Source: a virus
Direction: 5' to 3' (one strand)
Virus record (IMG/VR): IMGVR_UViG_3300037296_000160
Span: 1-53,674 of that record
DNA: 53,674 nucleotides
This document shows, piece by piece, positions 3,401 through 27,628 of the stretch. A model generated the notes under the pieces. It had not been told where the DNA came from. It worked only from the letters and a program-made list of their open reading frames with translations, and did no database searches. The position numbers were made by a program, and so were the translations under genes. Position 1 is the first letter of the stretch. Each line of letters starts with the position of its first letter.

Positions 3401-6400
3401 CCAGGTTCTTAGACGGGAGGGCTATCGGTCTGGCAAAGAGGTCATGGCCGCAATGGCAAATGGCACCCTAGCCGCCCGCGCCCGCGCCGATCTGACAACG
3501 CCGCCAGACGGGGGATCGACCCCGCCAGAGGGGGCAAAAGAGCGCCGCAAAAAATCGGCCGGCACGGCAACCGCCGAAAGCAAAGCGGCCAGCATCGTCA
3601 ACCGCGCCATCGACGCCAGCATGGAGTTGGCCGAGAAGGCAAAGGACGCCGCCACAAAGCAATCTGCCCGCGCGCTTCTATCGAACATGATGGATCACGG
3701 GCAGACGGGCACCTCGATCCTTGCGCTAGTGCCGGGCCGTCCGCTGTTGACGGAACTGGCGCGCAACCTGCCGTCCGCGCGCATCTACCTGCTGGCGAAA
3801 GAGGCCATGGACGCCACGCGCCAGCATTGGGCCGTGGACACCGATACCGTCGCAAAGAAGTGGCAATGGCAGGCGGTGCGCAACAAGACCGCCAATGACC
3901 AGTTTATGAGCCTGATGCACGACGCCACGCTTGCAGGGATCGACCCGGCAGAGGGGGGCATGGACCCGGCCACGCTGGAACGCTTGGTGAAAGAGGAAAC
4001 CGGGGCCGATCCGAAGGCCGACCCCGCCATCGTGCGCGCCAAGATCAAAGGCAACTTCACCGACTTTGTCGCCCGCTATCACGATCTACCCAAGCCGTTC
4101 CAAGACCTTTGGGCCGAGGTCCGCGATATGTATGGCCGTCTGGCCGACGAATGGGACAAGGCCATCATCGACAACCACGAACACGCCGTTGAGCGCGCCA
4201 TCCACAAGATGCGCGAAGAAAACGAGCGCGAGCAGGTCATCGTGGAGGCGGGCACCCTGTCCAAAAAGGACAAGGCCAAGGCCATCGAGCGCCTGCGCAA
4301 CGAAATCGCAGACGCCGAGAAGCGCGCACGGGAGAGCGGCAAGCGGCGCATGGGGGAACTGCGCGCCGCGTTCGAGAGCAACCGCACCTCAAAGCCCTAT
4401 TTCCCGCTGGCGCGCTTTGGCAATTACTACGTCACCCTCAAAGACGAGGCGGGCAAAGTCGTGTCCTTCAGCAAGTTTAAGGGCCAGAAGGAACAGGAGC
4501 GGTTTGCAGCCGAACACGAAGGCAAGTTTGAGGTCATTACCGGCGTCATGCAGCAAGACGGCAACCGTCTGGACAAGTCCGTTGACGCGGGCTTTGTGGC
4601 CGAGGTGGCAGATATTCTATCGCGCGACGGCGTGGATGATGACGTCATGGACGCGATCTGGCAGCGGTATCTGGAAACCATGCCCGATATGTCCCTGCGC
4701 AAGAGCCGCATCCACCGCAAAGGCACCGAAGGTTACACGCAAGACGCGCTGCGATCGTTCGGCAATCACATGTTCCACGGCGCGCACCAGCTTGCCCGGT
4801 TGAAGCATCAGAACGACATGCAAGACGCCCTCGATGACATGGCCGATCAGGCGAAGGCGTCCAAAGACCCCAACCGCGCCATGCACGTCGTCAATGAAAT
4901 CAGCCGCCGCCATGAGTTTACCATGTCGCCTAAAAACGCAGGCTGGACCGCGACCGCGTCTAGCTTGGCGTTTGTCTGGTATCTGGGGGCCACGCCAGCC
5001 GCAGCCATGGTCAACCTGACACAGACCACCATTATCGGCATCCCCATGATGCGCGCCCGCTACAAGAAATCCAGCACGGGCGACGTCACCCGCGAACTGG
5101 GCAGCGCATTGCGCGACTTTGGGCAGGGCAAGGGATACGCGGACAAGTCGTCCAAGCTGACCGCCAAAGAGCGCGAGGCGATGGACGCGGGCTATGATCG
5201 CGGCCTGATGGACAAGACGCAGGCCAGCGATATCGCGGGCATTGCGGAAACCGGCATCGAGTATAACCCGATCCGGTCACAGGCCATGGCAGTTATCGGC
5301 TTCATGTATCACCACGCAGAGCGCGCCAACCGGGAGGTCACATTTCTTGCGTCCTACCGCTTGGGCATCAAGGAAGGCTTGCCCCATGCCAGCGCCATCG
5401 ACCGGGCCGCAGATGCAACGTGGGATATCCATTTTGACTACCAAAACAACAGCCGTCCGCGCTTCATGCAAGACGATTTTCCCAAGGTTTTACTGACCTT
5501 TCGAGCGTTCCAAGTGAACATGATCTATCGCATGGTGCGCGACACGCACCAATCGTTGCACGGGGCCACACCGGAACTGCGCACCGAGGCGCGGCGTCAG
5601 CTTATCGGCATCACCGGGCAAATGGCGCTACATGCTGGCATCACCGGAACATGGGGCTACGGCATGGTCATGATGATCGTCGGGCTGTTCTTTAGCGCAG
5701 CCGGGGCCGACGACGAGCCAGAGCAAGCCTTGAAGAAGCTGATGGTAGGATCGACTGACCCAACCACGGCGCTGGGCCATGCGCGCCGCTTTATAGGGTC
5801 TATGGCGCTATACGGTGTTCCCGGCACCCTGACCGGCACCGCCCTGTCAGATCGCATTGGTATGCCTAACCTGTGGTTCCGTGACCCCTACAAAGACATG
5901 GAGGGCCGCGAAGCCTACACCAACTACCTGCAACAGCTTGTCGGCCCGGTGCCCGGTCTGGCGGAAAAGGGCTTTGTGGGTATGTCGCAACTGATGGACG
6001 GCAAGGTCGAGCGCGGCATCGAGAGCATGGTGCCCAAGTTTGTCCGCGACGGTATGCGGTCTGTGCGCTACCTGTCCGAAGGCGTGACCACCTACAGCAA
6101 CGAAGACCCGGTTGTAGAGCATGTATCGCCCTATCAGGCGCTTGTGCAGGCGCTGGGCCTGACCCCGGCGCAGATTGCCGAACGCTATGACACCAACAAC
6201 GCGATCAAGCGTCTGGAAGGCCGCATCGAGGACGCGCGCAGCGATACGCTGGGCACGATCCGCAAGGCGGTGCGTGACACAGGGGCACTGACACCTGACG
6301 CCGTGGACGCGCTGCACCGCTACAACGCCAAGTATCCCGAATGGATTATCGACCGGGGCACGATCAAGCGGTCACTGTCTGGCGCGCGCCGCGCATCCCA

Positions 6401-6482
6401 GAACAACACGGGCGGTATCAACATCAATGACAAGATCGCAGACCGCGTCTTGGGAAAGGTGGCCCCGACCGTCTTTGATTAA
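3..6482 (+). CDS. Giant polyvalent protein, C-terminal part (strawberry-notch helicase, zincin, LPD38)
   Basis: This is the 3' part of the gene that begins at 44941 and crosses the contig ends in the same frame. The first ATG at 48 is internal, because the frame is already open from base 3. Numbering from 44941, it covers residues about 2771-4929. It opens in the middle of the helicase, with DESH at 2809-2812 and the LGRIHRTGQ helicase-C signature near 3204, as in strawberry-notch (SNO) ATPases. A helicase-associated region follows. A zincin motif HEIVH lies at 3814-3818. A long charged helical region comes next, then a C-terminal block from about residue 4350 (helical, with NREVTFLASYRLG and SRPRFMQ) that matches my memory of LPD38, a large polyvalent-protein domain. 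Hydrophobic helices occur at nt 5640-5700. Polyvalent proteins of phages and conjugative elements are known to travel with injected DNA and counter host defences; that role here is inference. The gene ends at TAA 6480-6482, before a terminator. Confidence 0.85.
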   Translation, partial: EGDRYLFTTYSQLQAVKGKEPERRPLLRALAGNAMFLLDESHEAGGQADTGWKDPDAVADRATFMREVLAMAKGAVFSSATYAKNPTVMSLYAKTDLSLAVEDISELGAAIALGGVPLQQAIANMLVEAGQYARRERSFEGVSMALTPLDINMTVATDTIARVADIFDADMLVMQAARKDAIENLKADGHAETKDGAVGVESGDSTNFAAVIHNVVNQMLLALKVDAVADRAIQAWKDGEKPIMAVYNTNGALLDAMIEGEGLSVGDKVDLPFKVILHNYIERLRRITVKDGKNGEAIRIDLTDAQLGSRAATMLKKLHEDVDNTDFGKLSASPLDLLHDKMRAAGMKTGEITGRSRVIEDGILTARDASSAAKKRTMAAYNKGGAGGYDALIINQSGSTGFSLHATALKGNDGKQRLMIVMQADPNIDVFMQMLGRIHRTGQILLPKYEIAVTPLAAEKRGSAILMRKMASLNANTTASKDSAVTLDNVTDFLNEVGDKVMRRYLAENFDLAVRLDLDLDKENIAQKATGRMSILPPVDAERIYSEIEELYAAEIDELNRLGENPLEAQVYDWQAKEISSAVIEAGKGSSSPFDADTVMKYLSVRRLTKPYSWDEVQDRLAEAQDGITGESRVEAAAAHVGEVGTAYMHTLQDKVDALRNTWEKTRAEDDKADNTEGSTKTIKAKKAYDAAVKRFDEARTSIENTLSRLSDFEPGTAVMIGTSRGHMYGVILDLDASAMTNNPLALSKVAIRIAVADAARELRVPLSRFTGTDALTIEPAPADMVQFNFDSGQSSAREVRAVATGNLINAFARFGTGRIAFYTDENGATQTGVVMPATFDVRAELEREPVRFKTPEQVTAFLNGGDRIVDTGDGALTIKRTGYENYELTASTRAKVYYVGKAVTDITGQWTKRGSAPAKITVTSAADLNKLLAVYTDMIQPHFVTHSYKGEAREITGDALPDIKAPAGAAEKRAQPRNLRKRRDNLRRSLFMRLADTGMADEVSLQLARKIVSRTGTPLEGFQKGSVIAVAMDSANPESALDHEIVHAMRDSKLWGREGGLFGTADWRALVKQVRRQPQRLKAMQDLYPDLDSAAQMEEAVAELYADYRAGRDVDTAQGIMGRVQAMLETIGQVLRREGYRSGKEVMAAMANGTLAARARADLTTPPDGGSTPPEGAKERRKKSAGTATAESKAASIVNRAIDASMELAEKAKDAATKQSARALLSNMMDHGQTGTSILALVPGRPLLTELARNLPSARIYLLAKEAMDATRQHWAVDTDTVAKKWQWQAVRNKTANDQFMSLMHDATLAGIDPAEGGMDPATLERLVKEETGADPKADPAIVRAKIKGNFTDFVARYHDLPKPFQDLWAEVRDMYGRLADEWDKAIIDNHEHAVERAIHKMREENEREQVIVEAGTLSKKDKAKAIERLRNEIADAEKRARESGKRRMGELRAAFESNRTSKPYFPLARFGNYYVTLKDEAGKVVSFSKFKGQKEQERFAAEHEGKFEVITGVMQQDGNRLDKSVDAGFVAEVADILSRDGVDDDVMDAIWQRYLETMPDMSLRKSRIHRKGTEGYTQDALRSFGNHMFHGAHQLARLKHQNDMQDALDDMADQAKASKDPNRAMHVVNEISRRHEFTMSPKNAGWTATASSLAFVWYLGATPAAAMVNLTQTTIIGIPMMRARYKKSSTGDVTRELGSALRDFGQGKGYADKSSKLTAKEREAMDAGYDRGLMDKTQASDIAGIAETGIEYNPIRSQAMAVIGFMYHHAERANREVTFLASYRLGIKEGLPHASAIDRAADATWDIHFDYQNNSRPRFMQDDFPKVLLTFRAFQVNMIYRMVRDTHQSLHGATPELRTEARRQLIGITGQMALHAGITGTWGYGMVMMIVGLFFSAAGADDEPEQALKKLMVGSTDPTTALGHARRFIGSMALYGVPGTLTGTALSDRIGMPNLWFRDPYKDMEGREAYTNYLQQLVGPVPGLAEKGFVGMSQLMDGKVERGIESMVPKFVRDGMRSVRYLSEGVTTYSNEDPVVEHVSPYQALVQALGLTPAQIAERYDTNNAIKRLEGRIEDARSDTLGTIRKAVRDTGALTPDAVDALHRYNAKYPEWIIDRGTIKRSLSGARRASQNNTGGININDKIADRVLGKVAPTVFD

Positions 6483-7558: not shown

Positions 7559-8574
7559 CCCTATCGCCAAACGGGCGCATTGTCGCCGCTGCGCGCGCAA
7601 CCGTCGGGATTAAGGAAATCCCCGGCATGTTGCATAACCCCAAGATCATCGAAATGGCGAAGGCCGTCGGGCATGGCTGGGTGAAGGATGACGAAACCCC
7701 GTGGTGCGCGTCCTACGTCGGCTGGGTGTTGCTGACATGCGGCATCAAAGGCACGGGCAAGCTAAACGCGCGGTCCTACCTCGATTGGGGCGAAGTCGTA
7801 GAGATTGCCGACGCCAAGCCCGGTGACGTCTGCATCCTCACGCGGGGCGATCCGAATAGCTGGACCGGCCACGTCTTCTTTGTCACCAAGATCGACAACA
7901 AGCGCATCTACGGCATTGGCGGCAACCAGAGCAACGCCGTCACCGAAGCCAGCTACTTGCGCAATAGCAAGGTTCTAGGCGTTCGCCGCGCCCCCGGTGG
8001 CTTGAAGGCTGGCCCTATCGCATCCAAGCCACTGGCCGAGTTGGGCGGCTACAACGAACGCGCATTGGTCATGCTTTATCAGTCCAAGCTGAAAGAAAAG
8101 GGCTACCCGCTGGGCGAGGTAGACGGTCTGTTTGGCAAGCTGACCCGCGACGCCGTCATGGCCTATCAGGCTGACAACGGCCTGACCGTGACCGGCGCAA
8201 TCGACGGCACGACCGCCGACCTGCTGCTGAACGGCAACAGCAAGCGCCTACTGCCTGATGACCGCGCGCAGATCACCGCCGACGAACTGGAAGCGCGTGG
8301 GTCTGACACGATCCGCGAAGCCAACGGCGGCAAAACCACGTCCATCGTCACGCTTATCGGCAGCGTCTTTAGCTACCTGTTCGCCGCCAAGGACGACATT
8401 GCCAGCGTTGTGGCGACCGCAGAGGGCACCGCCGCGAAAGCGGGCGATCTAGCCCCCTACGCCATCCCCCTGTTCCTTGGCGCGGTCGCGCTTGTCCTGC
8501 TGCTGCGCCATTTCAGCCGCATCAAGGAAGCCCGCGTAGACGACGCGCGCACCGGCAAGAACATCGGGCGCTGA
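7555..8574 (+). CDS. Endolysin: cysteine peptidase/amidase, peptidoglycan-binding domain, C-terminal membrane segment
   Basis: A 339-residue protein. Residues ~1-150 resemble the CHAP/TIGR02594-type family: TPWCASYVGWVL supplies the nucleophilic Cys and GHVFFV the His. Residues ~160-225 form a PG_binding_1-type domain (LKEKGYPLGEVDGLFGKLT, AYQADNGL). The C-terminal third has a hydrophobic helix near residues 300-318 and a basic tail, so the enzyme may be membrane tethered rather than freely soluble. It cleaves peptidoglycan at lysis. The cassette context and ATGA coupling to the upstream membrane protein support the role. Which bond is cut cannot be told from sequence. Confidence 0.85.
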   Translation: MTLSPNGRIVAAARATVGIKEIPGMLHNPKIIEMAKAVGHGWVKDDETPWCASYVGWVLLTCGIKGTGKLNARSYLDWGEVVEIADAKPGDVCILTRGDPNSWTGHVFFVTKIDNKRIYGIGGNQSNAVTEASYLRNSKVLGVRRAPGGLKAGPIASKPLAELGGYNERALVMLYQSKLKEKGYPLGEVDGLFGKLTRDAVMAYQADNGLTVTGAIDGTTADLLLNGNSKRLLPDDRAQITADELEARGSDTIREANGGKTTSIVTLIGSVFSYLFAAKDDIASVVATAEGTAAKAGDLAPYAIPLFLGAVALVLLLRHFSRIKEARVDDARTGKNIGR

Positions 8575-8575
8575 T

Positions 8576-8797
8576 ATGGGCGCGATTGGTTTCACGGTCT
8601 GGGCCTTTGTGAGCGGCGCTGCGGCGGCGTTCGCGTGGTTCCTTGGCCGTGGCAAGAGCGCGCGCCGCGACGAGCGCGCCAAGCTGCAAAAGAAGGACGC
8701 CGACCATGCAGGCACGATTGAACGCCGCGTTGATGCTGTTCGCAGCGATCCTGACCGGATGCAGCGCGATCACGGAAAAGCGGGCTACCGCGACTGA
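8576..8797 (+). CDS. Inner-membrane spanin candidate (Rz-like)
   Basis: A 73-residue protein with an N-terminal transmembrane helix (residues ~3-22) followed by a strongly charged, probably helical domain, as in Rz-type i-spanins. It starts two bases after the endolysin stop. Its 3' half is overlapped in another frame by a lipoprotein gene, the classic Rz/Rz1 arrangement. Sequence similarity to known Rz is not visible; the call rests on topology and position. Confidence 0.65.
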   Translation: MGAIGFTVWAFVSGAAAAFAWFLGRGKSARRDERAKLQKKDADHAGTIERRVDAVRSDPDRMQRDHGKAGYRD

Positions 8798-8945: not shown

Positions 8946-10273
8946 GCACACAATTCCCCCGCCGCCCTGATATCTGCATCTTTCATTCACCTTGTAACGA
9001 CGGATTTGCCGCCGCGTGGGCCGTCTGGTCGCGCTTTGGCGACTATCCCGAATACATGCCCATGCAGCACGGCCAACGGCCCCTGCCAGACCCGCTGGAA
9101 TACCGCGATCAACATATCCTGTTCGTAGACTTTAGCCTGCCCCTGTCAGACCTCGAAGTCATGGCAAAGGATGCGGCCAGTATCACGATCCTCGATCACC
9201 ACGCGACCGCAGCCGCCGCGCTTGTCAGCTTGCCCCCCATGGACAAAGACCTTGGCGGGATCAGCAACAACTATGATCCGAGTATCCACCCCGAATGGGC
9301 CACGAACGTGCGCGTGGGCTTTGACATGGAACATTCTGGCGCGGCGCTGGCGTGGCAGTATATCCAACCCGGCAAACCCATCCCGCGCTTGATCCACCAC
9401 GTCCAAGGCCGCGATCTATGGCTCAAGGATGACGACATGCACGATATGGTTCATGCCGTCGTGGGCCTGCGCCTATCACGCCACCAGAACCTATCTGACC
9501 AATTTGAAGCCTTTTCCCGACTTAGCCACGAAATAGAGGCCAGCCCTGACGCCATTGTGGCCGAGGCTGAAATCCTGGCCGATCAGCGGGCCATGTTTGT
9601 GGCGCAGATCGCAGAGACAGCCATCGACGTGAACATCGCAGGGCACGTCGTTCCCGTGGTCAGCGCGCCCTATGCGCTTGTATCCGACGTCTGCCATGCC
9701 TTGCTCAAGGAAGACCCCAAAGCGCCCTTTGCCGCCGCCGTGGTCCACGCCTATGGCAACACCAACATATCCATGCGGTCGGACAATGACCGGCTGGACG
9801 TGGGCTGCATCGCGGCCACCTATGGCGGGGGCGGGCATCGCAATGCGGCCGGTTTTCAAGCGCCGTGGTTCCTGTGGCCCATGCAGATCGAGAACATGGC
9901 CGCATCGCTGGAAGACAAGCCTTTGAAGCCGGTGAAGCTGTCCAATCTTGCGATACAAATTGCTGACATGGTCGAGGTAATCGACATGGTTATGGTGCGA
10001 GTGTTCCCCGAACTGACATGCCGCGCCCGCATCGACGTAGAGGACCGGCCCGCAACGCCATCGGGCTACAAGACGGCAAAGGCCACCGTGTCAATCGAGA
10101 CAAGCATCGACGGCAAACACATAGAAACCTTTACCGAGGCGTATCGCGTCGTTCGCCAAAAAGACGGCACCATCCCAAGGGATCACGTTGAGGCAATCAT
10201 ATCACTCGCCTGCAATATGGGCCACGGCCAGATATGCCCGTCAACGGGCCTGCAAGATATGGTGGACGCCTAA
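8942..10273 (+). CDS. DHH/DHHA1-family phosphoesterase
   Basis: A 443-residue protein using ATG 8942, which overlaps the spanin stop. Residues ~10-30 contain the HSPCNDGFAAAWA motif, ~60-65 VDFSL and ~82-90 LDHHAT, the namesake DHH motif with metal ligands. GGGGHRNAAGF near residue 300 is the DHHA1 substrate-binding motif. The family includes nanoRNases, pAp phosphatases and c-di-AMP phosphodiesterases. The phage enzyme probably acts on short nucleotides or signalling nucleotides, but the substrate cannot be deduced. The C-terminal ~100 residues are extra. It is coupled to the next gene (TAATG). Confidence 0.85.
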   Translation: MSTQFPRRPDICIFHSPCNDGFAAAWAVWSRFGDYPEYMPMQHGQRPLPDPLEYRDQHILFVDFSLPLSDLEVMAKDAASITILDHHATAAAALVSLPPMDKDLGGISNNYDPSIHPEWATNVRVGFDMEHSGAALAWQYIQPGKPIPRLIHHVQGRDLWLKDDDMHDMVHAVVGLRLSRHQNLSDQFEAFSRLSHEIEASPDAIVAEAEILADQRAMFVAQIAETAIDVNIAGHVVPVVSAPYALVSDVCHALLKEDPKAPFAAAVVHAYGNTNISMRSDNDRLDVGCIAATYGGGGHRNAAGFQAPWFLWPMQIENMAASLEDKPLKPVKLSNLAIQIADMVEVIDMVMVRVFPELTCRARIDVEDRPATPSGYKTAKATVSIETSIDGKHIETFTEAYRVVRQKDGTIPRDHVEAIISLACNMGHGQICPSTGLQDMVDA

Positions 10274-10620
10274 TGGCGCGGCACCAACTGCCTGACCGTC
10301 GGCCAGCCGTTACCGTGCTGGCCACATGGCAGACCGAAGGGGGAGGTCATAAAATCCACCTGACGGCAGGCTATGACCTCGAAGGCCGCTTGCGCGAAGT
10401 CTTCTATGCCGACGGCCAGAAAACCGGCGCTGGGCTGCGCGACGTCGTGCAAGATGCTTGTGTTCTGGTGTCGCTGCTTTTGCAGCATGACGTGCCGCTC
10501 GATCAGATCGCCAAGAGCATGGCAAGCGAGACGATCTATTTTAAGACGGTGCCGACAACGATCATCGGCACCATCGTTCGGGCGCTGGGCGATTTGGATA
10601 TCGTGCAGCCCCCCGCATAA
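10273..10620 (+). CDS. TSCPD-like domain protein
   Basis: A 115-residue protein whose start (ATG 10273) overlaps the DHH gene stop. Residues ~35-95 (GRLREVFYADGQKTGAGLRDVVQDACVL) resemble the TSCPD domain found at the C-terminus of class II ribonucleotide reductases and as free-standing phage proteins. The conserved Cys of TSCPD is not evident in that segment. A role in nucleotide metabolism is plausible given the DHH neighbour, but unproven. It is the last plus-strand gene of the lysis-side transcript and converges on the minus-strand replication block only 15 bp away, with no visible terminator. Confidence 0.6.
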   Translation: MARHQLPDRRPAVTVLATWQTEGGGHKIHLTAGYDLEGRLREVFYADGQKTGAGLRDVVQDACVLVSLLLQHDVPLDQIAKSMASETIYFKTVPTTIIGTIVRALGDLDIVQPPA

Positions 10621-10635
10621 TAGGATTTATGTAAA

Positions 10636-10803
10636 CTAGCGCGAATGGTAGGTGTCAGACCGGGCCTTGAGAAAAGCCCCGGTCGCACGGCCAGCCGCAT
10701 CCCCGGCAATGTTTGGCAACAGCCAGACGGCCAGCAAGACAGCCACCGCAACAACACCCCAGAACTGTGCGCCGCGCTTGGGCGCACGATCAGGATTTTC
10801 CAT
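10636..10803 (-). CDS. Small single-pass membrane protein
   Basis: A 55-residue protein with one clear transmembrane helix (FWGVVAVAVLLAVWLLP, residues ~16-32). The start at 10803 is supported by TTGGAGG upstream on the minus strand and overlaps the preceding gene by 14 bases. It is the last gene of the rep-par operon. No family is recognised. Candidate roles include superinfection exclusion or envelope modification by the prophage (speculative). Confidence 0.65.
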   Translation of the reverse strand: MENPDRAPKRGAQFWGVVAVAVLLAVWLLPNIAGDAAGRATGAFLKARSDTYHSR

Positions 10804-11029
10804 ACTTGGCCTCCAACAGATCAATCGCCTCGATCAACAGCGCGCGCACGTTCTTACCCTCTAATTCCAAAGCAAGCCGCCCGTAGCGTTTGACAATATC
10901 CGAAGGCACCTTGGCCCCCAGATGCTTTGCGTGGGCGTCGTCGGCTACCGTGCGATCTTGTGACGTATTGTCGGGCATTGTGGCCGTGCTGCGTGTCGGG
11001 GCTGCGCCCAAGGCGGGTTTCTTCGCCAT
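10790..11029 (-). CDS. Ribbon-helix-helix partition protein candidate (ParG/ParB-like)
   Basis: A 79-residue protein with a flexible polar N-terminus (residues 1-34) and a C-terminal HLGAKVPSDIVKRYGRLALELEGKNVRALLIEA pattern (shown split: HLGAKVPSDIVK, then NVRALLIEAIDLL), resembling an RHH fold: one beta strand followed by two helices. It lies directly after parA, preceded by AGGAG. In type Ib partition loci, small RHH proteins with unstructured N-termini stimulate ParA and bind short phased repeats; this gene has the size, layout and position expected. Phased ACCAC repeats lie upstream of parA. The RHH call is from pattern only. Confidence 0.65.
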   Translation of the reverse strand: MAKKPALGAAPTRSTATMPDNTSQDRTVADDAHAKHLGAKVPSDIVKRYGRLALELEGKNVRALLIEAIDLLEAKYGKS

Positions 11030-11034
11030 CGTTG

Positions 11035-11685
11035 TTACTCCTGTGTGGGCTGGGCGACGCCAGCAAAGGTAAAGATTGCGTCGGCCAGCGCGCGCGCCTC
11101 GGTATCGACGCTGGCAAAGCCCGTCTCACTGGCGCAGCCGCCCCGGTTATGGGCTTGGCGCACAGACGGCATTTCACGCATGGCAGGCAATAGCATGGCG
11201 CAGCCAGTGGTGCGCAGGTAGCGTTGGGCTTCTTCCAACTCACTGCCCCCGGTGCGGGCGCGGCAGAACGCATAAGCGATCCGGTCAGCAGGCACACCCT
11301 TGTCGATCAACTCATAGGCCGCGAGAACCTGCGGGCGCAGGTCGTCCTCACTCAAGCCCGTCGGCATCACCACCGTATGCGCCGCCTTGGCGACGTCTAA
11401 GCTGCGCTTGTCCATGAACGCGGGGGTGTCGATAACCAAAAGGTCGCAAGCGCCGACGTAGGCCAGCGCAGCTTGCGGGGTGCGGCATTTCTCTACGGCG
11501 ATATCGGGGTCTAACTCTGCCGCGTCCCGCCGCTGTTTCCACTCGACCGACGTGCCCTGACCGGGATCGAGGTCGCACAAGCGGACAGACAGGCCGCGCT
11601 TGGCCCCTTCAACCGCCAGCAAGCGGGCTATGGTCGATTTTCCGACGCCGCCTTTTTGGCCGATTGTTGCGATAATCGTAGTCAT
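11035..11685 (-). CDS. parA: ParA-family partition ATPase
   Basis: A 216-residue protein from ATG 11685. The N-terminus has the deviant Walker A motif GQKGGVGKST (residues ~8-17), a Walker A' region CDLDPGQGTS (residues ~37-46), and Walker B DLLVIDTPAF near residue 83. It lacks an N-terminal HTH extension, so it matches the short type Ib ParA class that works with an RHH partner. It would segregate the plasmid prophage. An in-frame ATG at 11712 exists but has no Shine-Dalgarno. The rhh gene follows after five bases, and the Rep gene lies upstream on the same strand. Confidence 0.9.
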   Translation of the reverse strand: MTTIIATIGQKGGVGKSTIARLLAVEGAKRGLSVRLCDLDPGQGTSVEWKQRRDAAELDPDIAVEKCRTPQAALAYVGACDLLVIDTPAFMDKRSLDVAKAAHTVVMPTGLSEDDLRPQVLAAYELIDKGVPADRIAYAFCRARTGGSELEEAQRYLRTTGCAMLLPAMREMPSVRQAHNRGGCASETGFASVDTEARALADAIFTFAGVAQPTQE

Positions 11686-11722
11686 GCGGCACCCTATGTT
11701 GGTTTGTTCCATCTAACCAATA

Positions 11723-11746
11723 GTGGTTTCGTGGTCGCGTGGTCAA
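11723..11746 (-). promoter_or_regulatory. parA operator/centromere candidate: three ACCAC units phased at 8 bp
   Basis: Read in the direction of parA, three perfect ACCAC boxes occur at exact 8-bp spacing with spacers GCG, GAA and TAT. Immediately before the first box the sequence reads TTGACC, a possible -35 element, with weak TATTGG about 18 bp further on, so the boxes would lie across a promoter. RHH partition proteins of the ParG/omega type are known to bind short boxes at 7-8 bp phasing and to autoregulate. Related arrays occur elsewhere in the genome. Confidence 0.65.
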
Positions 11747-12591
11747 GACAATGCTTGTGCCGTTCCCTCGATCATCTGGCTAGGATCATCCCAATGCAGC
11801 AGGTATCCGGTGACGATCCGTTTTTCGACAACAGGCTCGACCTCCACTTGAAACGGGGCCAGCGCGTTGACGTGTTTGACCGCAGGGGCAATAGCGTAGC
11901 GCCAAAGATCATTGGACGACGCCAGCTTGCCGCGCGGCACCCCCAGAACGATATCGCGCATCTTGGCGGGTTTGAACAATTCGGACCTGACGTGCCGCAT
12001 ATTGATCCGCCGCGCCGTGACCTCGAACATGCGGTAAGCATACTTGCTGGGAAGCTGGGCCATTAGGTCCACATCGAGCATCCCCCAAAAGGTGCTGCGA
12101 TACATGACGTCAAAGTAATCGCGATCATAACTATACCGCAAAAAGCCAAAGGGCACGTCGGGCGCAAGACTGTCAGCCTCGTCTGGCCTGACGCTGCCGC
12201 CATGCTTCACGCTGCCAAGTTTCTGAACAGACACGAAGCCTCCGCGCGTATCGCGGACCTGCATGACCGTCTTTTGTAATCGCTTAAGGCTTTTGAATAC
12301 CCGGTCGTTATCGCTGCGCCCGCGTCGCAAGGCACTCATGGGAATCATGAAGTCCGTTAGGCCGCGTTGCACCCTGTCCCGCTGTTCCAGCGCCCCGCGC
12401 AAAAGGCGGTTCTCAATATCGAGGTCTGCCTTCGTCAGCTTATCCAAGCCGTCGATGCTAAAGTCGATCAATTCACCGGGCTTAGCCAAGTTACCCGGCG
12501 GCGTATTCGCCAGCAGAGCGGGTATCATAGACGCCTGCCGTTCTTCACGATCCTGCTTCATCGCGCCAGAGCGAGTTTTGGGGGGGGTCAT
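11743..12591 (-). CDS. Replication initiator protein, Rep_3-type winged-helix
   Basis: A 282-residue protein. The middle and C-terminal part has the signature of iteron-binding plasmid initiators: LPSKYAYRMFEVTARR, then VLGVPRGKLASSNDLWRYAI, then PAVKHVNALAPFQVEVEPV (residues ~180-265), corresponding to the second winged helix of Rep_3. It would bind the iterons at 12744-12826 and recruit host DnaA and helicase. The start at 12591 is the first ATG with a weak AGG upstream; ATG at codon 11 is an alternative. An inverted iteron copy overlaps codons 2-7, suggesting autoregulation. Its stop abuts the par operator. Confidence 0.85.
   Translation of the reverse strand: MTPPKTRSGAMKQDREERQASMIPALLANTPPGNLAKPGELIDFSIDGLDKLTKADLDIENRLLRGALEQRDRVQRGLTDFMIPMSALRRGRSDNDRVFKSLKRLQKTVMQVRDTRGGFVSVQKLGSVKHGGSVRPDEADSLAPDVPFGFLRYSYDRDYFDVMYRSTFWGMLDVDLMAQLPSKYAYRMFEVTARRINMRHVRSELFKPAKMRDIVLGVPRGKLASSNDLWRYAIAPAVKHVNALAPFQVEVEPVVEKRIVTGYLLHWDDPSQMIEGTAQALS
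12571..12587 (-). promoter_or_regulatory. Inverted iteron copy at the start of rep
   Basis: GCGAGTTTT followed by eight G is the reverse complement of the iteron core, differing from iteron 2 by one base over 17. It lies in codons 2-7 of rep, about 157 bp from the iteron array and in the opposite orientation. Inverted iteron half-sites at initiator genes are known sites of Rep autorepression in iteron plasmids. Confidence 0.7.
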
Positions 12592-12734: not shown

Positions 12735-12743
12735 TTATCCACA
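12735..12743 (+). other. DnaA box
   Basis: TTATCCACA is a perfect match to the bacterial DnaA box consensus and directly abuts the first iteron. A DnaA box beside iterons is a standard element of Rep-dependent plasmid origins. Confidence 0.85.
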
Positions 12744-12826
12744 CCCCCCCAATAACTCGCTAGAACCCCCCCAAAAACTCGCCCAAACCCCCCCAATAAC
12801 TCGCTGAACCCCCCCCAAAAACTCGC
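12744..12826 (+). repeat. Four 22-bp-phased iterons (plasmid-type origin)
   Basis: The core CCCCCCC-AATAACTCGC or CCCCCCC-AAAAACTCGC starts at 12744, 12766, 12788 and 12810, an exact 22-bp period (about two helical turns). The AATAA and AAAAA variants alternate. The array lies between a DnaA box and an AT-rich region and beside a Rep_3-type initiator gene, so it is the predicted origin of replication. Confidence 0.9.
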
Positions 12827-12831
12827 CCAGA

Positions 12832-12897
12832 TCAGCTTTTTTTTATGTATTTTCAATAAGATAACTTTTGGGAATATAGAATATAAGAATATAAGAA
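12832..12897. other. AT-rich DNA unwinding element of the origin
   Basis: A strongly AT-rich stretch in an otherwise GC-rich genome, directly downstream of the iterons. It includes an oligo-T run and three near-tandem GAATATA repeats (12872, 12879 and 12887). This is the expected position of origin melting. From 12898 to 13037 I see no gene. Confidence 0.7.
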
Positions 12898-13037: not shown

Positions 13038-13259
13038 TTGAGCAAGACAGATACACTGATAGCGCCAGAAGGCGCGAAGGTCAGCGCCCGCAAGGCACCG
13101 ATGCAAACTGTAATGGCGGGGGCAGCTACAGCACGGCCATCACAGCGCAAGGCCATGTTGGACGTGCTTAGAGCAGTGACGCTTAACGACGACCCGCAAA
13201 AGCGGCGAGAATTGTTGTCTGGTCTTTCAGCAAAGCTAATTCCGCATCGTCCAAACTAG
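13038..13259 (+). CDS. Small protein of unknown function, TTG start
   Basis: A 73-residue basic, Ala-rich protein starting at TTG 13038 with GGGAG seven bases upstream. No domain is recognised. It lies between the origin and the repressor candidate and overlaps the 3' end of that convergent gene by 77 bases. It may be a small regulator of replication or a chance frame. Confidence 0.4.
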   Translation: MSKTDTLIAPEGAKVSARKAPMQTVMAGAATARPSQRKAMLDVLRAVTLNDDPQKRRELLSGLSAKLIPHRPN

Positions 13260-13617
13260 ACGCTAAGTCGAAGATTTCGATCATGTCGCCAATGACCTTA
13301 CGGTCGCCCAGCATTTCCATCCAATGCTGCAATGCGATTGCTTCATCATCGGGCATATCACTGACCGCCTGACAGACCCATCGCCGCGCTTTTGCGCCTT
13401 CCGATTGGTCCGCATCGTCAACGAGGTCGGCCACGCGCAGCCCAAGGCGATCCATCAAAGCAATGCCAAGATTGAATGAGAACCGTGACGTATCGCCGCG
13501 CAGGAAGCGATAAACAGCGTCGGGCGGGCCTTCCACCAGATCGCGTCTGTTAATTTTCTTGTCTGCCGTGCCGTCCAAAACGTGTTGGCGCAATCGGTCT
13601 GAATAATTTTCCGTCAC
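13183..13617 (-). CDS. HTH transcriptional regulator, lysogeny repressor candidate
   Basis: A 144-residue protein. The start is GTG 13617, because AGGAG lies six bases upstream of it; the longer GTG start at 13635 lacks a comparable site. Residues ~20-65 (INRRDLVEGPPDAVYRFLRGDT, then LGIALMDRLGLRVADLV) resemble a Cro/CI-type HTH. The acidic C-terminus shows no LexA-like peptidase Ser/Lys dyad that I can identify. It is divergent from the terminase genes across a region rich in repeated motifs, the classic place for a phage repressor. Confidence 0.65.
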   Translation of the reverse strand: MTENYSDRLRQHVLDGTADKKINRRDLVEGPPDAVYRFLRGDTSRFSFNLGIALMDRLGLRVADLVDDADQSEGAKARRWVCQAVSDMPDDEAIALQHWMEMLGDRKVIGDMIEIFDLASSLDDAELALLKDQTTILAAFAGRR

Positions 13618-13635
13618 TGGAAACTCCTGTCTCAC

Positions 13636-13847
13636 AGATTTTCATATGTGCAAATAATTGGCCGTATTAAAGTCTTTAAGCGTATATACCTAACTTTAGG
13701 CGGAAATATGGCCGCATTGGTATAGGTTTTCGGCACAAACGTATAATTTAGGCGGCACTGTCAGCAGATGTGCAGATAGTTGATCCTTGCTTTTTACCAT
13801 AATTTGCAGATATGCAGATTGTCGGTAGTCGGCAGGATATTCGACAC
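13636..13847. promoter_or_regulatory. Divergent control region between repressor candidate and terminase genes
   Basis: It contains four TGCARAT-type sites: 13647-13656, 13769-13778, and two overlapping ones at 13802-13811 and 13810-13819. It also contains two direct TTTAGGCGG repeats (13695 and 13747) and a palindrome CCTAA-ct-TTAGG (13689-13700). A perfect TATAAT lies at 13742-13747 with TTGGTA 19 bp upstream, a possible rightward promoter. The repeated motifs are candidate operators for the adjacent HTH protein. Confidence 0.55.
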
Positions 13848-14405
13848 ATGGCAAAATCAGCACTCACGCCGAAGCGCAAACGCTTTTGCGAGTTATACGT
13901 CCTCCACGGCAACGCCACCAAAGCGGCCATCGAGGCGGGATACTCTGAGAAAACGGCGCGATCTATCGCAGCCGAAATGAGAGCCATTCCCGAAGTACAG
14001 GCGCACATCGACCTACTCATAGCCGAACAGAGCCAACGCACCGGGATCGACGCCGACAGCGTCCTAAAAGAGATTGCCAAGATCGCCTTTGCGAACATGG
14101 GCGACTTTATGAAGTTTGACGAAGCCGGGAACCTGTCAGGTCTGTCCGTGGACGGCCTGTCAGACGACCAGCTTGCCGCGATCACCGACTTTTCAACCGA
14201 CGTTGTGATTGAGTTTCCAGACGGCAAGGACGGCGATGCGGTCTATGTCCGCAAGACCCGCCTCAAGCTGGGCAACAAGGGCACCGCCCTGCGCGATCTG
14301 GGCAACCACCTTGGCCTATTCAAGAAGGCCGAGGGCGACGACATGGCCAAGCTGTTGCGCGACCTTGTGTCTGATAAAGCCCTGCCCCCCGGTTCGTTGA
14401 ACTGA
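13848..14405 (+). CDS. Terminase small subunit
   Basis: A 185-residue protein starting at ATG 13848 (AGGA ten bases upstream). Residues ~4-60 (LTPKRKRFCELYVLHGNATKAA, then AGYSEKTARSIAAE) are the Terminase_2-type HTH signature. It recognises the packaging site and regulates the large subunit. The stop overlaps the terL start (TGATG), indicating coupling. An upstream in-frame ATG at 13812 lies within predicted operators and has no ribosome site. Confidence 0.9.
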   Translation: MAKSALTPKRKRFCELYVLHGNATKAAIEAGYSEKTARSIAAEMRAIPEVQAHIDLLIAEQSQRTGIDADSVLKEIAKIAFANMGDFMKFDEAGNLSGLSVDGLSDDQLAAITDFSTDVVIEFPDGKDGDAVYVRKTRLKLGNKGTALRDLGNHLGLFKKAEGDDMAKLLRDLVSDKALPPGSLN

Positions 14406-16105
14406 TGGATGCGCAAAGGGCCATTGCACATACCACCCGACGCGAGACGCCAAGGGCGCGCGACTTGCGGCGCACCCGCATGGCCCCTGCCCGCGCCATG
14501 AGTAAGCACGACCACCTCCCTTGGCCCGAAAACGCCGTAGACCCCGATTTTGTGCCCACCACCGGGCAGGAATTGCTGACCTGCCTGCGCAGCAAGCGGT
14601 GGCGTCTGTATTCGGGCAGGCTTTACAAGATCATCGTCAAAGACAACGAAGACCCCGATGACGAGGGCGTCGTCCTGCCGTTCGCCCCGTGGGCCGAGCA
14701 GACGCAGTATTTCCTAGAGCCAGCCTTGCGCCGTCTGTTGCTCAAGGCCCGCCAGCTTGGCTTTACGACGGCCATCGCCATCGAAATGCTCGACCACGCG
14801 CTTTGGGAAAGCGATCAGCGGTGCGCCATTGTCGCGCAGTCCAATGAGGCGATGGAGGCTATCTTTCGGGATAAGATCATCTTCGCCTACGACAACCTGC
14901 CCCCAATCGTTCGCGCCATGGTGCCCTACATCAAGCGCACCGAACGCATGATCCAGTTTGAGAACAACTCCAACATTCGCGTTGCCCTGTCCTTCCGGTC
15001 TGGAACGCTGAACCGCCTGCACGTTTCCGAGTTTGGCAAGATCAGCGCCAAGACCCCGAAGCGCGCCAAAGAGATCGTTTCGGGATCGTTCCCCGCAGTC
15101 GTGCCGTCTGGACAGGCAACGATTGAAAGCACCGCCGAGGGCAAGGGCGGCGAGTTTCACAAGATATCAGAGAGAGCGCGCAAAAGGGCCGATGACCCGC
15201 GCCCGCTGGCCGCGAAAGAGTGGAAGTTTATGTTTTTCGCATGGTGGCAGGCAAAGACCAACGAAGTGGACCCCACGGGCGTCATCATCAGCGATGAAGA
15301 CCATGAATACTTCAACGGCCTAGAGGAAGCCTTGGGCATCCTACTGCCGAACCGCAAGCGCGCTTGGTATGTCCTGACCCGCGATGACGAACTTGGCGGC
15401 GATGCGGCGATGATGTGGGCAGAGCATCCATCCACCCCGCAAGAGTCTTGGCAGAAGGATCGCAAAGGCCACTACTACGCCAAACAGATGCTAAGTGCCC
15501 GCGCCAACAAGCACGTCGGCCTGTTTCCCCCGGTCAAAGGCGTCCCGTGCATGGGCGTCTGGGATATCGGCCACACCGACGGCACCGGCCTATTCTTGTT
15601 CCAAGAGGTTCTAGGGCACCATCGCTTTGTCGCCTACATCGAGGGCTGGGAAGAACCCTATGACTACTACACGCGGCGCATGGTGCAGACCGGCCTCGTG
15701 TTGGGCACCCAATACCTGCCGCATGACGCTGACAACCACATCATGCTCAAGGATATCACCACGACGCCGCGCACGATGCTGCAAGAACTCTTGCCAACCG
15801 TCCCGTTCGTCACGGTCCAGCGCATCCCCGAAAAGCCCCTGCAACATGCCCTCGTGCGCAAGCACTTTGAATTGATCCGCTGGCACCAGCCGGGGGAGGG
15901 CATGGAGGACGCCCTCGAACACATCGACAACTATCAGAAGTCTTGGAACACGGTCACGGCCCAATTCAACGACACCCCCCTCAAAAATGAAGCAACCGAG
16001 TGTGCCGACGCGCTGGGCATCTACGCGCAGGTCGTTGAGGCCGGTGCATTTGCGATCACCAGCCGCCGCCGCCCACGCCGCCCCAAAGGAGGCAAAACCC
16101 TATGA
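14405..16105 (+). CDS. Terminase large subunit
   Basis: A 566-residue packaging motor. The ATPase domain has an atypical Walker A region LLLKARQLGFTT (residues ~113-124), the QSNEAMEAIFRDK segment and VSEFGKI, and IESTAEGKGGEFH as the coupling region (residues ~240-252). The nuclease domain begins near MGVWDIGHTDGT (residue ~383, first catalytic Asp). The N-terminal ~30 residues are basic and may not be native; ATG 14498 is an alternative start. It translocates DNA into the prohead through the portal encoded nearby. Confidence 0.92.
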   Translation: MDAQRAIAHTTRRETPRARDLRRTRMAPARAMSKHDHLPWPENAVDPDFVPTTGQELLTCLRSKRWRLYSGRLYKIIVKDNEDPDDEGVVLPFAPWAEQTQYFLEPALRRLLLKARQLGFTTAIAIEMLDHALWESDQRCAIVAQSNEAMEAIFRDKIIFAYDNLPPIVRAMVPYIKRTERMIQFENNSNIRVALSFRSGTLNRLHVSEFGKISAKTPKRAKEIVSGSFPAVVPSGQATIESTAEGKGGEFHKISERARKRADDPRPLAAKEWKFMFFAWWQAKTNEVDPTGVIISDEDHEYFNGLEEALGILLPNRKRAWYVLTRDDELGGDAAMMWAEHPSTPQESWQKDRKGHYYAKQMLSARANKHVGLFPPVKGVPCMGVWDIGHTDGTGLFLFQEVLGHHRFVAYIEGWEEPYDYYTRRMVQTGLVLGTQYLPHDADNHIMLKDITTTPRTMLQELLPTVPFVTVQRIPEKPLQHALVRKHFELIRWHQPGEGMEDALEHIDNYQKSWNTVTAQFNDTPLKNEATECADALGIYAQVVEAGAFAITSRRRPRRPKGGKTL

Positions 16106-16536
16106 GTTATGGAATTGATCTGGAACTGGCCCACGCCGAGTTTGACCGAGGCGACCTGCGCGTCACGATGACATGGCTGTTCGAGGGGGCCGACCGGGCC
16201 ACCCCGCAGCCCTGCATGGTCCTGTCCCGCAGCGTCGAGCGCCAAGACCGCATGAAAATGCCCGTCGTCGTCACACTGGATAACGCTTGGCGTTGGGACC
16301 CCGCGACGTGGATCGAGTTTGACACCATGGAGCGCGCGTCTGGCTTTGCCGACAGCCTTGGTTTCGCGGTGAACAAACAGACCGTCATCACCATCGCGGG
16401 CCTGATTAACGACTACCTCGATGAATTGCTCACCATGCCCGTCGCCCCGCGCGTGAAGCAGACCAAACAAGCCGAAATGACGGTCATCAACCGCAACAGT
16501 GGCGAACAAATGGAAGTGGAGGTTTTGACGCGATGA
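16102..16536 (+). CDS. Conserved-type phage protein of unknown function between terminase and portal
   Basis: A 144-residue acidic/neutral protein, no domain recognised. AAAGGAGG lies ten bases upstream, and both ends overlap neighbours (ATGA), so it is firmly in the packaging operon. Position suggests a role in packaging or head assembly, but nothing in the sequence fixes one. Confidence 0.75.
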   Translation: MSYGIDLELAHAEFDRGDLRVTMTWLFEGADRATPQPCMVLSRSVERQDRMKMPVVVTLDNAWRWDPATWIEFDTMERASGFADSLGFAVNKQTVITIAGLINDYLDELLTMPVAPRVKQTKQAEMTVINRNSGEQMEVEVLTR

Positions 16537-18782
16537 CAAGCATAGCTGTTGGGGAGAAGGTGCGCGAGTTTCGCAGCCTCTTGAACGAAACCCCCGAAGA
16601 TCAGGCGCAGCCGAACAAGCACGATAAGCACCTCGATACAGAGGAAGCCAAGGCGCTGCACCGCGAAATGATGGGCAGCTTTAGCCTTGAGCTGTCCCGG
16701 CAGGCCGCATCCCGCCGCCGCCGCGCCCGCGCAGAGGACTATTACCACGGCGTCCAGTTTACCGAGGCCGAGCGCCTTGAAATCGAGGGGCGCGGCCAGA
16801 CCGCGACCACGCTCAACATCATGGGGCCGTCGATTAACTGGATGCTGGGCACCGAGCGCCGCAACCGGGCTGACGGCAAGGTTCTGCCCCGCCGCAAGGA
16901 CGGACGCACCGACGCCGACTCCAAGACGCAGCTTTTGAAATACGTCGATGATTGCCACCACGCCGAAATGAAGAAATCGGCCGCATTTGCTGATGCGATC
17001 ATCACCGGGCTTGGCTGGCTGGAAACAGGCGTCCGCGATAGCGAAGCTGGCGGCGAACCTGTGTTCGTCGGCCACCCGGCGTGGCGGCAAATGGTCCATG
17101 ACAGCTTTGCCACAGAGTTGGATATGGGCGATGCGCGCTACATGTTCCGCGCCAAGTGGACGGACGTGAACATTGCGACGGCCATGTTCCCAGACCGCGC
17201 GCCAACGATCCGCGCCGCCGCGCTGCGCGACAACGGCATGTCGGGCGACGGCGGCATTGACGGCTGGGGCGATGACGCCATGGACAGCGTCGAGCAATTC
17301 GCCCTCGATACCCACGACTTTGGCTATGAGATTGCCGAGGCAATGCGCCCGCGTGTGCGGCTTATCGAGGCATGGACCCGCCGCCCGATGATGACGCCCT
17401 GCATGATCGGCGGCATGTTCGACGGCGAGATTTTCGACCCGCACAGCCACGGGCACGTCAACGAAGTCATCATGGGCAACGCGCGCGTCAAAGAGAAGCT
17501 GCGCAACCGGATGCAGGTTCACATTATGACGTCGGGCGGGCTGTTGCGGTCCCAGAACTCGCCCTATCGCCACAACAAGTTTCCATTCACCCCCGTCTGG
17601 GGCAACCGGCGCGCGTCTGACAACATGCCTTACGGCGTGGCTGATACGATGATCGACCTGCAAGACGACATCAACAAGCGCCAGATCAAAGCCACCTACA
17701 TTCTGAACACCAACAAGGTCGTGGCCTACGAGGGCAGCGTGTCCGACGTGGACGAGTTTCTTGAGGAAGTGCCGCGCCCTGACGGCGTGATCTGGATTAA
17801 GGAAGGCAAGCAAAAGCCTGATTTTAATGCAGATAAGGAGCTTGGGACGTCGCACCTTAACTCAATGTCTATGTCGATCGACATGGTTCAGCAGCTATCG
17901 GGCATCACTGACGAAAGCATGGGGCGCACCACCAACGCCACGTCAGGCCGCGCGATCAAGGCGCGTCAGGAGCAAGGGGCCATGACCACGGCCCACTACT
18001 ACGACAACTTTAGGTATGCCCTGCAAGTCCATGGCGAGAAACAGCTTTGCGTCTGTGAACAGTTTATCGACAAGGAAAAGCAATTTCGCATCGCCACCCC
18101 GCGCGGGGGCTTTGACTTTAAGACGGTGAACGAACCGGGCAACGCCGCAACGAACATCACCGCGTTTAAGGCTGACTTTCAGATGGGCGAGGAAGATTGG
18201 AAGGCCAGCAACCGGCAGGCGTCCGCTGACAGCTTTATCCAGATCATGTCGCAGCTTGCCCCGGCCAACCCGCAAGTGCTGACCTCGATCCTCGATCTAT
18301 TGGTAGACATGCTGGACGTGCCCTACGCCGAGGAAATCGCCTCCCGCCTGCGCCTGCAATTCAACATTGAAGACCCAGACGCCGACCCCAATGACCCGTC
18401 GCCGCAAGCCGTCGAACAGCGGGCCAAGAAGGAAGCCGCCGCAGCCGCAGCAGGCGAGGCCATGGAGATGCAGAAGGCCGCACAGCAAGCCGAAACCGAC
18501 AAGGCCACCGCCAGCGCCCGCGAAGCGCGCGCCAAGGCCGCACGGTCGGAAATCGAGGCGCAAAAGGAACTGTTGTCGATGGACCGTATCGCGTTCGACA
18601 ACATCAGCGTCATGCAAGCGCAGCGCGGCACCGCCGCGACCGCCGACGCCATGATCGAGGACGCCATCGCGCGTGTGAACGCCATGGTGCAGCCGCAGAC
18701 AGGGCAACCCCCTGCCCCTGCCCCCGATATGCCGCCCCCAGAGGCAGGCATGGACCCCGCAAGCCAACTTATCCCCGCATAA
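16533..18782 (+). CDS. Portal protein, P22-like
   Basis: A 749-residue protein, the size of P22-type portals. Characteristic stretches include TLNIMGPSINWMLGTERRNR (residues ~89-108), the region FPFTPVWGNRRASDNMPYG (~350-370) and LSGITDESMGRTTNATSGRA (~453-472). The C-terminus (~620-749) is Ala/Glu-rich and helical, ending in a Pro-rich tail, as in the barrel of long portals. It forms the dodecameric DNA gate and nucleates capsid assembly. It is coupled to the gene before it and followed by a scaffold-type gene. Confidence 0.92.
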   Translation: MTSIAVGEKVREFRSLLNETPEDQAQPNKHDKHLDTEEAKALHREMMGSFSLELSRQAASRRRRARAEDYYHGVQFTEAERLEIEGRGQTATTLNIMGPSINWMLGTERRNRADGKVLPRRKDGRTDADSKTQLLKYVDDCHHAEMKKSAAFADAIITGLGWLETGVRDSEAGGEPVFVGHPAWRQMVHDSFATELDMGDARYMFRAKWTDVNIATAMFPDRAPTIRAAALRDNGMSGDGGIDGWGDDAMDSVEQFALDTHDFGYEIAEAMRPRVRLIEAWTRRPMMTPCMIGGMFDGEIFDPHSHGHVNEVIMGNARVKEKLRNRMQVHIMTSGGLLRSQNSPYRHNKFPFTPVWGNRRASDNMPYGVADTMIDLQDDINKRQIKATYILNTNKVVAYEGSVSDVDEFLEEVPRPDGVIWIKEGKQKPDFNADKELGTSHLNSMSMSIDMVQQLSGITDESMGRTTNATSGRAIKARQEQGAMTTAHYYDNFRYALQVHGEKQLCVCEQFIDKEKQFRIATPRGGFDFKTVNEPGNAATNITAFKADFQMGEEDWKASNRQASADSFIQIMSQLAPANPQVLTSILDLLVDMLDVPYAEEIASRLRLQFNIEDPDADPNDPSPQAVEQRAKKEAAAAAAGEAMEMQKAAQQAETDKATASAREARAKAARSEIEAQKELLSMDRIAFDNISVMQAQRGTAATADAMIEDAIARVNAMVQPQTGQPPAPAPDMPPPEAGMDPASQLIPA

Positions 18783-18803
18783 TCAGCAAAGAGGAAACAC
18801 CCC

Positions 18804-19652
18804 ATGGCAAACCCGCAGACACACTACGACGATCCGCCCATCAACGCCGAAGATGACGCCGAAATCGTCCTGACCGACGATGACCGCCGCCAGCTTACGC
18901 CAGCGGATATCGAAGCCCTGTCCGCTGTTGTGGATGCAGAGGTCATAGACGAGCAGCCCGCACCCGCGCCTGCCCCTGTGATCGATCAGCAGCCCGCCCC
19001 GGCCCCGGCACCGGCCACGGACTATAGCGCGGATATCGCTGCGCAGGATGCAGCTATGCGCGCGCTACGCGCAAGCTGGGACGACGGCGACGTGTCGGTT
19101 GATGACTACAACCGCCAGCAGGACGAATTGCAGGCCGCGCGCGATGAACTAATCACCGCCCGCGCTTTGCAGGAGGCTAACCCTGCCCCGGCCCAGCCCG
19201 AAGACAACGGCGGCGACCGGCAGGAAGACCCCGCCTTTGCCCTCGATGCGCAGAGATATGCGACCGCCTACCCCGAACTGTTCTCTGACGCGCACTTTAC
19301 CGCGTTCAACGCACTGTTCGAGCAAAACGACGCGCGGGCATCGAGCGCCAACCTCACCACCACGCAGCTACTTGAGAAGACGCACCGCGAGTATGCCGCA
19401 CTGGCCGAGGCACAGCATCGGCCATTGCAGGTATCCCTACCGGGCACCGGAGGCGTTGGTGGCCGCAAGGACGAAGTGCCGCCCAGCATTGCCGACGTGC
19501 CCGCGTCTGGTCTGGACGCGCACCAAGACCGCTTTTCGACCTTGGCAGCCCAGATCGACACGATGGACAACCCTGACGATATCGAGGCCATCTTGGCGAA
19601 GTTGCCCCCTGACCAACGCGATGCGTTCGCGTCATTTGGCGACGACGGATGA
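18804..19652 (+). CDS. Scaffolding-type protein
   Basis: A 282-residue, very acidic protein with two PAPAPAP linkers near residues 52-75 and a helical middle region. No enzymatic motif is present. The composition, and position directly after the portal, fit a capsid scaffold. The capsid gene itself is 9.8 kb away, which is unusual. Ribosome site GAGGAAA precedes the start. Confidence 0.65.
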   Translation: MANPQTHYDDPPINAEDDAEIVLTDDDRRQLTPADIEALSAVVDAEVIDEQPAPAPAPVIDQQPAPAPAPATDYSADIAAQDAAMRALRASWDDGDVSVDDYNRQQDELQAARDELITARALQEANPAPAQPEDNGGDRQEDPAFALDAQRYATAYPELFSDAHFTAFNALFEQNDARASSANLTTTQLLEKTHREYAALAEAQHRPLQVSLPGTGGVGGRKDEVPPSIADVPASGLDAHQDRFSTLAAQIDTMDNPDDIEAILAKLPPDQRDAFASFGDDG

Positions 19653-24496: not shown

Positions 24497-24822
24497 TGCC
24501 CGCCGCGATCAAGATGAACAGCATGGTCAAAGCTGTAGACCTTGCCACAGGCAAAGAGAGCGAGAGCGTTGTAAGCTGGGGGGTGTTGCCGCCCGCGCCA
24601 GACCGGTGCCAAACCTGCGCCGTGGACCACACGCCAGACCAGCCGCATGACGCGGGTTCGCTTTTCTACCAATTCACGTTCGGCAATGAGCATGGCCGCG
24701 CCCCGACGTGGACCGACGCCATGGCGCATTGCACCGCCGCTGTGCGCGACGAGTGGACCGACAACCTGCGCGCCATGGGCGTGGATATCCCAAAGATGGA
24801 GGGAAACGACGATGCAAGCTGA
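24496..24822 (+). CDS. Conserved-type phage protein with Cys pair
   Basis: A 108-residue protein with CQTCAVDHTPDQPHDAGSLF and GRAPTWTDAMAHC. These motifs recall a small protein family frequent in phages of proteobacteria, function unknown. The CxxC plus later His/Cys could bind zinc. The end overlaps the clamp gene start by 11 bases. Confidence 0.7.
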   Translation: MPAAIKMNSMVKAVDLATGKESESVVSWGVLPPAPDRCQTCAVDHTPDQPHDAGSLFYQFTFGNEHGRAPTWTDAMAHCTAAVRDEWTDNLRAMGVDIPKMEGNDDAS

Positions 24823-27534: not shown

Positions 27535-27586
27535 TTACACAATCTTGCAGTTGTGTAAATACATAATCGCATACGGTTACTGTATG
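27535..27586. promoter_or_regulatory. Candidate resolvase site (res) or divergent operator
   Basis: TTACACAA-N8-TTGTGTAA (27535-27558) is a perfect 24-bp inverted repeat. ATACGGT-t-ACTGTAT (27571-27585) is a second near-perfect palindrome. They lie directly upstream of the serine recombinase gene, where resolvases usually have their res sites. A perfect TTGACA (27594-27599) follows, with a poor -10. Confidence 0.5.
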
Positions 27587-27628
27587 ACTTATCTTGACAC
27601 CATAGGTGCGCCGTGCGTAATGTTCGGC

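Follow-up and report, generated by a model that had tools for sequence, protein, structure and literature searches.

The phage-plasmid lifestyle is already known, with P1, RcCronus and POI1126 as examples. Origin oriR of P1 combines Rep, iterons, DnaA boxes and an AT-rich region, and its iterons are 19 bp long, compared with 17 bp in RK2; both genomes are unrelated to the phage described here. In oriV of RK2, the DnaA boxes are followed by the iterons and these by the DUE, and the beta clamp works with TrfA (PMC4980987). RepA-dependent extrachromosomal prophages have been proved in mycobacteriophages (PMC7157519), an extrachromosomal prophage has been proposed by the authors for the Rhodobacter phage RcCronus and its relatives (PMC4882933), and another phage-plasmid is active in a marine Roseobacter (PMC10090143). 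The prophage of the Ochrobactrum phage POI1126, a podovirus related to PBC5, PEp14 and BcepIL02, was demonstrated by experiment to be a plasmid; partition genes are present in this phage, and the authors found no replication gene or origin (PMC5492332). Among plasmids, those of Paracoccus carry single inverted partial iterons that adjoin or cover the rep start codon, and in pMOS7 the DnaA box TTATCCACA lies 2 bp from the last repeat (PMC3832669).

The DNA examined here is the IMG/VR record IMGVR_UViG_3300037296_000160, positions 1-53,674 (the whole stretch of 53,674 bp, hereafter the window), with a GC content of 61%. The two ends of the record (1-426 and 53249-53674) overlap by 426 bp, with 422 identities and 4 mismatches. 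The genome is therefore circular or terminally redundant, with a length of about 53,248 bp, and it is probably complete; the four mismatches suggest population variants or an assembly overlap. The sequence-only reading had assigned this DNA to a tailed phage, which is borne out by its portal, terminase, capsid, internal virion and lysis genes. The packaging module beside the origin comprises the small and large terminase subunits and a P22-type portal (13812-18782, + strand; Pfam/PHROG-type protein matches), and the window further encodes a major head protein, internal virion proteins, a tail fibre, a holin and an endolysin. A giant open frame of ~4,900 residues crosses the record junction (~44,900-53,248 joined to 1-6,482); its product, a giant polyvalent protein, combines an inorganic pyrophosphatase-like domain with LPD5, LPD1, Strawberry-notch helicase and LPD39 domains.

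Among the other genes is a homologue of the DNA polymerase III beta subunit, or sliding clamp (24647-25957, + strand; Pfam DNA_pol3_beta_2, E 2e-19; TIGR00663, E 4e-37, just under the cut-off). Clear counterparts of this clamp occur in only two of 35 portal relatives, with weak ones in two more, and it is a possible partner in replication. The phage also encodes a Holliday junction resolvase. Among the proteins scanned, neither a DNA polymerase or primase nor a dedicated integrase was recognised. A resolvase-type serine recombinase of 278 aa (27545-28381), consisting of the resolvase domain alone, could resolve plasmid multimers or invert a tail segment. No Rfam RNA and no tRNA were found.

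The putative origin opens with a DnaA box, TTATCCACA (12735-12743, + strand), the single match in 53,674 bp even when the relaxed pattern TTWTNCACA is included. By chance, 0.15 such matches would be expected in the whole window and 0.0005 within the ~190 bp around the iteron array. The last base of the box is also the first base of iteron 1, so that the perfect box abutting four iterons, as claimed from the sequence alone, was found in place. The iterons (12743-12826, + strand) read ACCCCCCCAAWAACTCGC, the fourth starting with C, or GCGAGTTWTTGGGGGGG on the rep strand; they form 18-bp units at 12743-12760, 12765-12782, 12787-12804 and 12809-12826. Their exact 22-bp period and alternating cores (in order AATAA, AAAAA, AATAA and AAAAA) were likewise seen as first described, and the alternation indicates that a 44-bp pair was duplicated once. 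At a shift of 22 bp, 54 of 66 positions match, against a maximum of 34 in 500 dinucleotide shuffles and 36 in the next best 600-bp block of the window; the iteron array is far beyond chance. Within 12744-12817, every iteron has a tract of 7-8 C, which reads as G on the rep strand and is longer than in relatives; spaced by about 15 nt, these four G tracts could adopt non-B structures.

The region that follows the iterons (12837-12897) had been described as AT-rich with GAATATA repeats, and it is the most AT-rich stretch of the genome at lengths of 50, 60 and 80 bp. Positions 12837-12896 reach 83% AT in a genome of 61% GC, and a tandem GAATATAA repeat occupies 12872-12897; this region is a probable DNA unwinding element. 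No IHF consensus site was found. The cumulative GC skew has no turning point at 12.7 kb and is uninformative in this genome, where most of the long predicted genes are on the + strand. The sequence features by which an iteron origin is recognised are present, namely several direct repeats near rep, typically of about 17-22 bp (here four, with a period of 22 bp), a flanking AT-rich region and a DnaA box. Their order (DnaA box, iterons, AT-rich region) sustains the likeness to theta-replicating plasmids drawn in the sequence-only reading and matches that of RK2 oriV (PMC4980987). On the far side of the origin, two small genes precede the packaging genes. A 150-aa protein encoded there (13183-13635, - strand) belongs to no known family; by eye it looks like a helix-turn-helix repressor, and a role in regulating lysogeny is conceivable.

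The gene beside the origin, rep (11743-12591, - strand; 282 aa as annotated), encodes a Rep_3-type replication initiator, again as first proposed: its product matches Pfam Rep3_C (PF21205) with 22.9 bits, above the cut-off of 21.1 (E 1e-4), and is homologous to Rhodobacterales plasmid Reps. The window Rep taken alone did not match Rep3_N (PF01051); both models, Rep3_N and Rep3_C, recognise its homologues from two viral contigs, L011 and L012. By tblastn, Rep homologues were detected in 158 plasmid records (best E 2e-25), and the 60 matches listed are nearly all annotated replication initiators from Rhodobacterales, with 32-37% identity. Overall, Rep is 31-37% identical to plasmid replication proteins of Rhodobacterales and Sphingomonadales, and the alignments contain invariant positions through residues 37-267. 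The window Rep does not have the C-terminal extension present in most plasmid Reps; Sphingomonas, L011 and L012 likewise have short Reps of about this length. In the Rep tree, the window protein is very divergent and stands on a saturated branch, for which reason we claim no donor group.

Used as a single query, Rep found no close relatives in viral or genome contigs or in the phage collection, and a search with the iteron DNA pattern matched no viral contig. When solved structures were searched by sequence, no initiator matched Rep; the lone solved-structure match of the L012 Rep, to Cas12f, was judged meaningless. Besides its rep gene (7748-8611), parA (9462-10346) and a tyrosine integrase gene (10572-11531), L012 encodes tail, baseplate and lysis genes. 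It is another candidate phage-plasmid, with a predicted Rep_3 and iteron origin, ParA and tyrosine integrase, and its Rep is near those of Sphingomonas.

The loci compared with the window, 80 bacterial ones and the two viral contigs, were fetched by Rep alone. Since the arrays were not used in choosing them, a shared iteron design provides independent support. The best repeat period is 22 bp in nearly all 82 Rep relatives. Counted from the conserved KPGEL codon, most of these arrays have their centre near -340 and that of the window at -338; among all 83, the window array is the second strongest. The common design consists of a 5-bp half-site, an AT core and GGG. Aligned by their GGG, the units of Rhodobacterales follow CTTAC-NNWTYGGG and those of Sphingomonas and L012 follow GTGAG-NNTTYGGG; the unit of the window is GCGAG-TTWTTGGGGGGG. 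A DnaA box is present in 22 of 78 relatives, mostly on the far side of the array, whereas that of the window is on the rep side. Several of the related plasmids carry different parAB genes, placed divergently; the iteron grammar follows Rep, not Par.

The Rhodobacterales Rep_3/iteron replicons, such as Paracoccus denitrificans PD1222 plasmid 1 and Parasedimentitalea pQS-1, resemble the locus described here in their homologous Rep, in 21-22-bp iterons that lie on the rep strand, similarly far upstream, and, for most of them, in inverted iteron half-sites at the rep start. In contrast, the Rep of the window is shorter and 31-37% identical to theirs, its half-site is GCGAG instead of CTTAC and its G tracts are long; parA lies downstream of rep on the same strand, whereas theirs is a divergent parAB, and the DnaA box flanks the array on the opposite side.

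A fifth iteron-like copy, absent from the earlier description, lies in the opposite orientation over rep codons 2-7 (12571-12588, - strand). Its core is AAAA, compared with AAAAA in the iterons of that type, and it carries the same altered half-site, GCGAG, as the four iterons. Of 78 relatives, 60 have inverted half-sites (CTTAC-N17..19-GTAAG) where rep begins; shuffles predict 0.25. The Paracoccus plasmids pAES2, pHAE1, pMARC4, pAES7 and pMOS7 also combine iterons with one inverted partial iteron at the rep start (PMC3832669); these are small plasmids, likened here by site layout and not by Rep kinship. On the strength of these two arrangements, the fifth copy is likely a Rep operator for autoregulation. 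The ATG codons 1 and 11 are both possible starts of rep, and the homologues begin near residues 11-14 of the window Rep in the alignment, so that the fifth copy would sit just before the start codon. We rejected a GCGAG lying 26 bp upstream of the CTCGC in the operator as a candidate second half, since the spacing in relatives is 17-19 bp. No sigma-70-like promoter was found for rep.

Only 30 bp downstream of rep, on the same strand, parA (11035-11712, - strand) encodes a small ParA ATPase of 225 aa (PHROG 164, ParA-like partition protein, E 1e-22), which is 44-49% identical to ParA proteins of Rhodobacterales plasmids and Rhodobacter phages; its best matches come from such plasmids and from phages, those of Rhodobacter among them. 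It is directly followed by a gene for a 79-aa protein (10790-11029, - strand) with a weak Antitox_RHH match (E 0.008, below the cut-off). Small ORFs are likewise found behind parA in two plasmids (L185 and L186), and the 79-aa product is a probable ribbon-helix-helix (RHH) partner of ParA, comparable to ParB. The genes rep, parA and the RHH-like gene probably form one operon. In L185, which is plasmid pDY25-F, two replication initiator protein A genes in opposite orientation adjoin parA (17209-19463). A comparable set is found in the Rhodobacter phages RcCronus, RcRhea and RcSaxon, which are tailed, encode rep, a small gene and parA (ParA 44% identical) and have three 22-bp repeats directly before repA. 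These phages differ in that their Rep belongs to the RPA family (PF10134) and their genomes are ~36 kb long; they gave no match to this portal or Rep among the matches listed.

The portal shares 41-46% identity with those of PEp14, PBC5, Atu_ph08 and Bcep22-type phages. By this kinship and its giant polyvalent protein with a helicase domain, the virus belongs to the Bcep22/PEp14/PBC5-type podoviruses. As a single query, the portal found no viral contig, but an alignment query did. Among 34 portal-related virus records of at least 40 kb, some of which may be fragments, none encodes a Rep_3, RPA or PF03090 initiator and one encodes ParA. POI1126, likened to the present phage by its published description, shares the podovirus group and the partition genes and differs in having no recognised replication gene or origin (PMC5492332), in contrast to the rep-iteron module described here. 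Plasmid unnamed2 of Comamonas thiooxydans CSUSB4 (NZ_CP083940.1), circular and 57.7 kb long, resembles this genome in its related portal, its giant polyvalent gene and its neighbouring rep and parA, but its Rep is of the PF03090/PriCT type instead of Rep_3.

The genome carries the two gene sets that characterise phage-plasmids, one for virion formation, packaging and lysis, the other for plasmid replication and partition (rep, parA). We consider it very probable, from sequence comparison, that the region at 12735-12897 is the theta-type plasmid origin of a phage-plasmid, operating with Rep, iterons, DnaA and ParA in the following way. On the model of RK2 oriV (PMC4980987), Rep, as a winged-helix initiator of the Rep_3 type, would bind the four 22-bp iterons as monomers and, together with host DnaA at the adjacent box, would melt the neighbouring AT-rich stretch, onto which helicase and DNA polymerase III of the host would be loaded. 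By analogy with the beta clamp and TrfA in RK2, the phage's own clamp may join this loading of the replisome. Rep bound to the inverted fifth iteron at its own start codon would limit Rep synthesis, and autoregulation and copy control would be expected of such a system. ParA and the small RHH-like protein would segregate the plasmid prophage. Dozens of plasmids of Alphaproteobacteria share this type of plasmid-style origin, which here comes with the phage's own initiator and segregation genes. A plasmid is therefore the most likely state of the virus within its host, which is probably a member of the Rhodobacterales.

The 22-bp repeats could instead be the centromere (parS/parH) of a type Ib ParA/RHH system and not a replication origin. 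In favour of this, centromeres of type Ib are often found upstream of the par operon, and here rep, parA and the RHH-like gene follow one another closely on one strand and perhaps form one operon. However, homologous rep genes have repeats of this 22-bp grammar also in plasmids with a different, divergent ParA/ParB pair, which argues against a partition site; moreover, the inverted copy sits at rep, not at parA, and the DnaA box and AT-rich stretch fit an origin. We therefore regard a centromere as very improbable. A true origin might still serve lytic replication only, in a virulent phage with no plasmid prophage. A clamp and a Holliday junction resolvase are encoded, and the proteins scanned included no recognisable DNA polymerase or primase, so that Rep could serve lytic replication, but a partition gene is useful for stable inheritance alone, and POI1126, from the same podovirus group, is a plasmid prophage (PMC5492332). 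This makes a purely lytic role improbable.

The module could also be a decaying, plasmid-derived remnant that no longer works, as might be suspected from a Rep that is very divergent and has no C-terminal extension. Similarly short Reps exist, however, in Sphingomonas, L011 and L012, and both Rep and ParA are intact open frames. In addition, the four iterons and the inverted operator copy share the changed half-site GCGAG, as expected of sites kept together by selection, and we judge decay to be highly unlikely.

With a plasmid origin as the preferred reading, and the lifestyle itself already described in other phages, what is new is a concrete, predicted Rep_3/iteron module in the Bcep22/PEp14/PBC5 podovirus group. 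It is tempting, though speculative and on balance rather doubtful, to propose that whole rep-par cassettes are swapped among podoviruses of this group (Rep_3 and its iterons in the present phage, a replicase of the PF03090/PriCT type in Comamonas, and perhaps further ones where rep is unrecognised), that the GCGAG half-site would make the prophage compatible with resident Rhodobacterales plasmids bearing CTTAC iterons, and that the phage's own clamp would work with Rep to capture the host replisome. The genome supplies a testable rep-ori-par cassette in a relative of POI1126, whose own replication gene was not found (PMC5492332). An iteron grammar that extends across more than 80 alphaproteobacterial replicons would make the compatibility between phage and resident plasmid predictable, and the module suggests that plasmid replication modules move into podoviruses.
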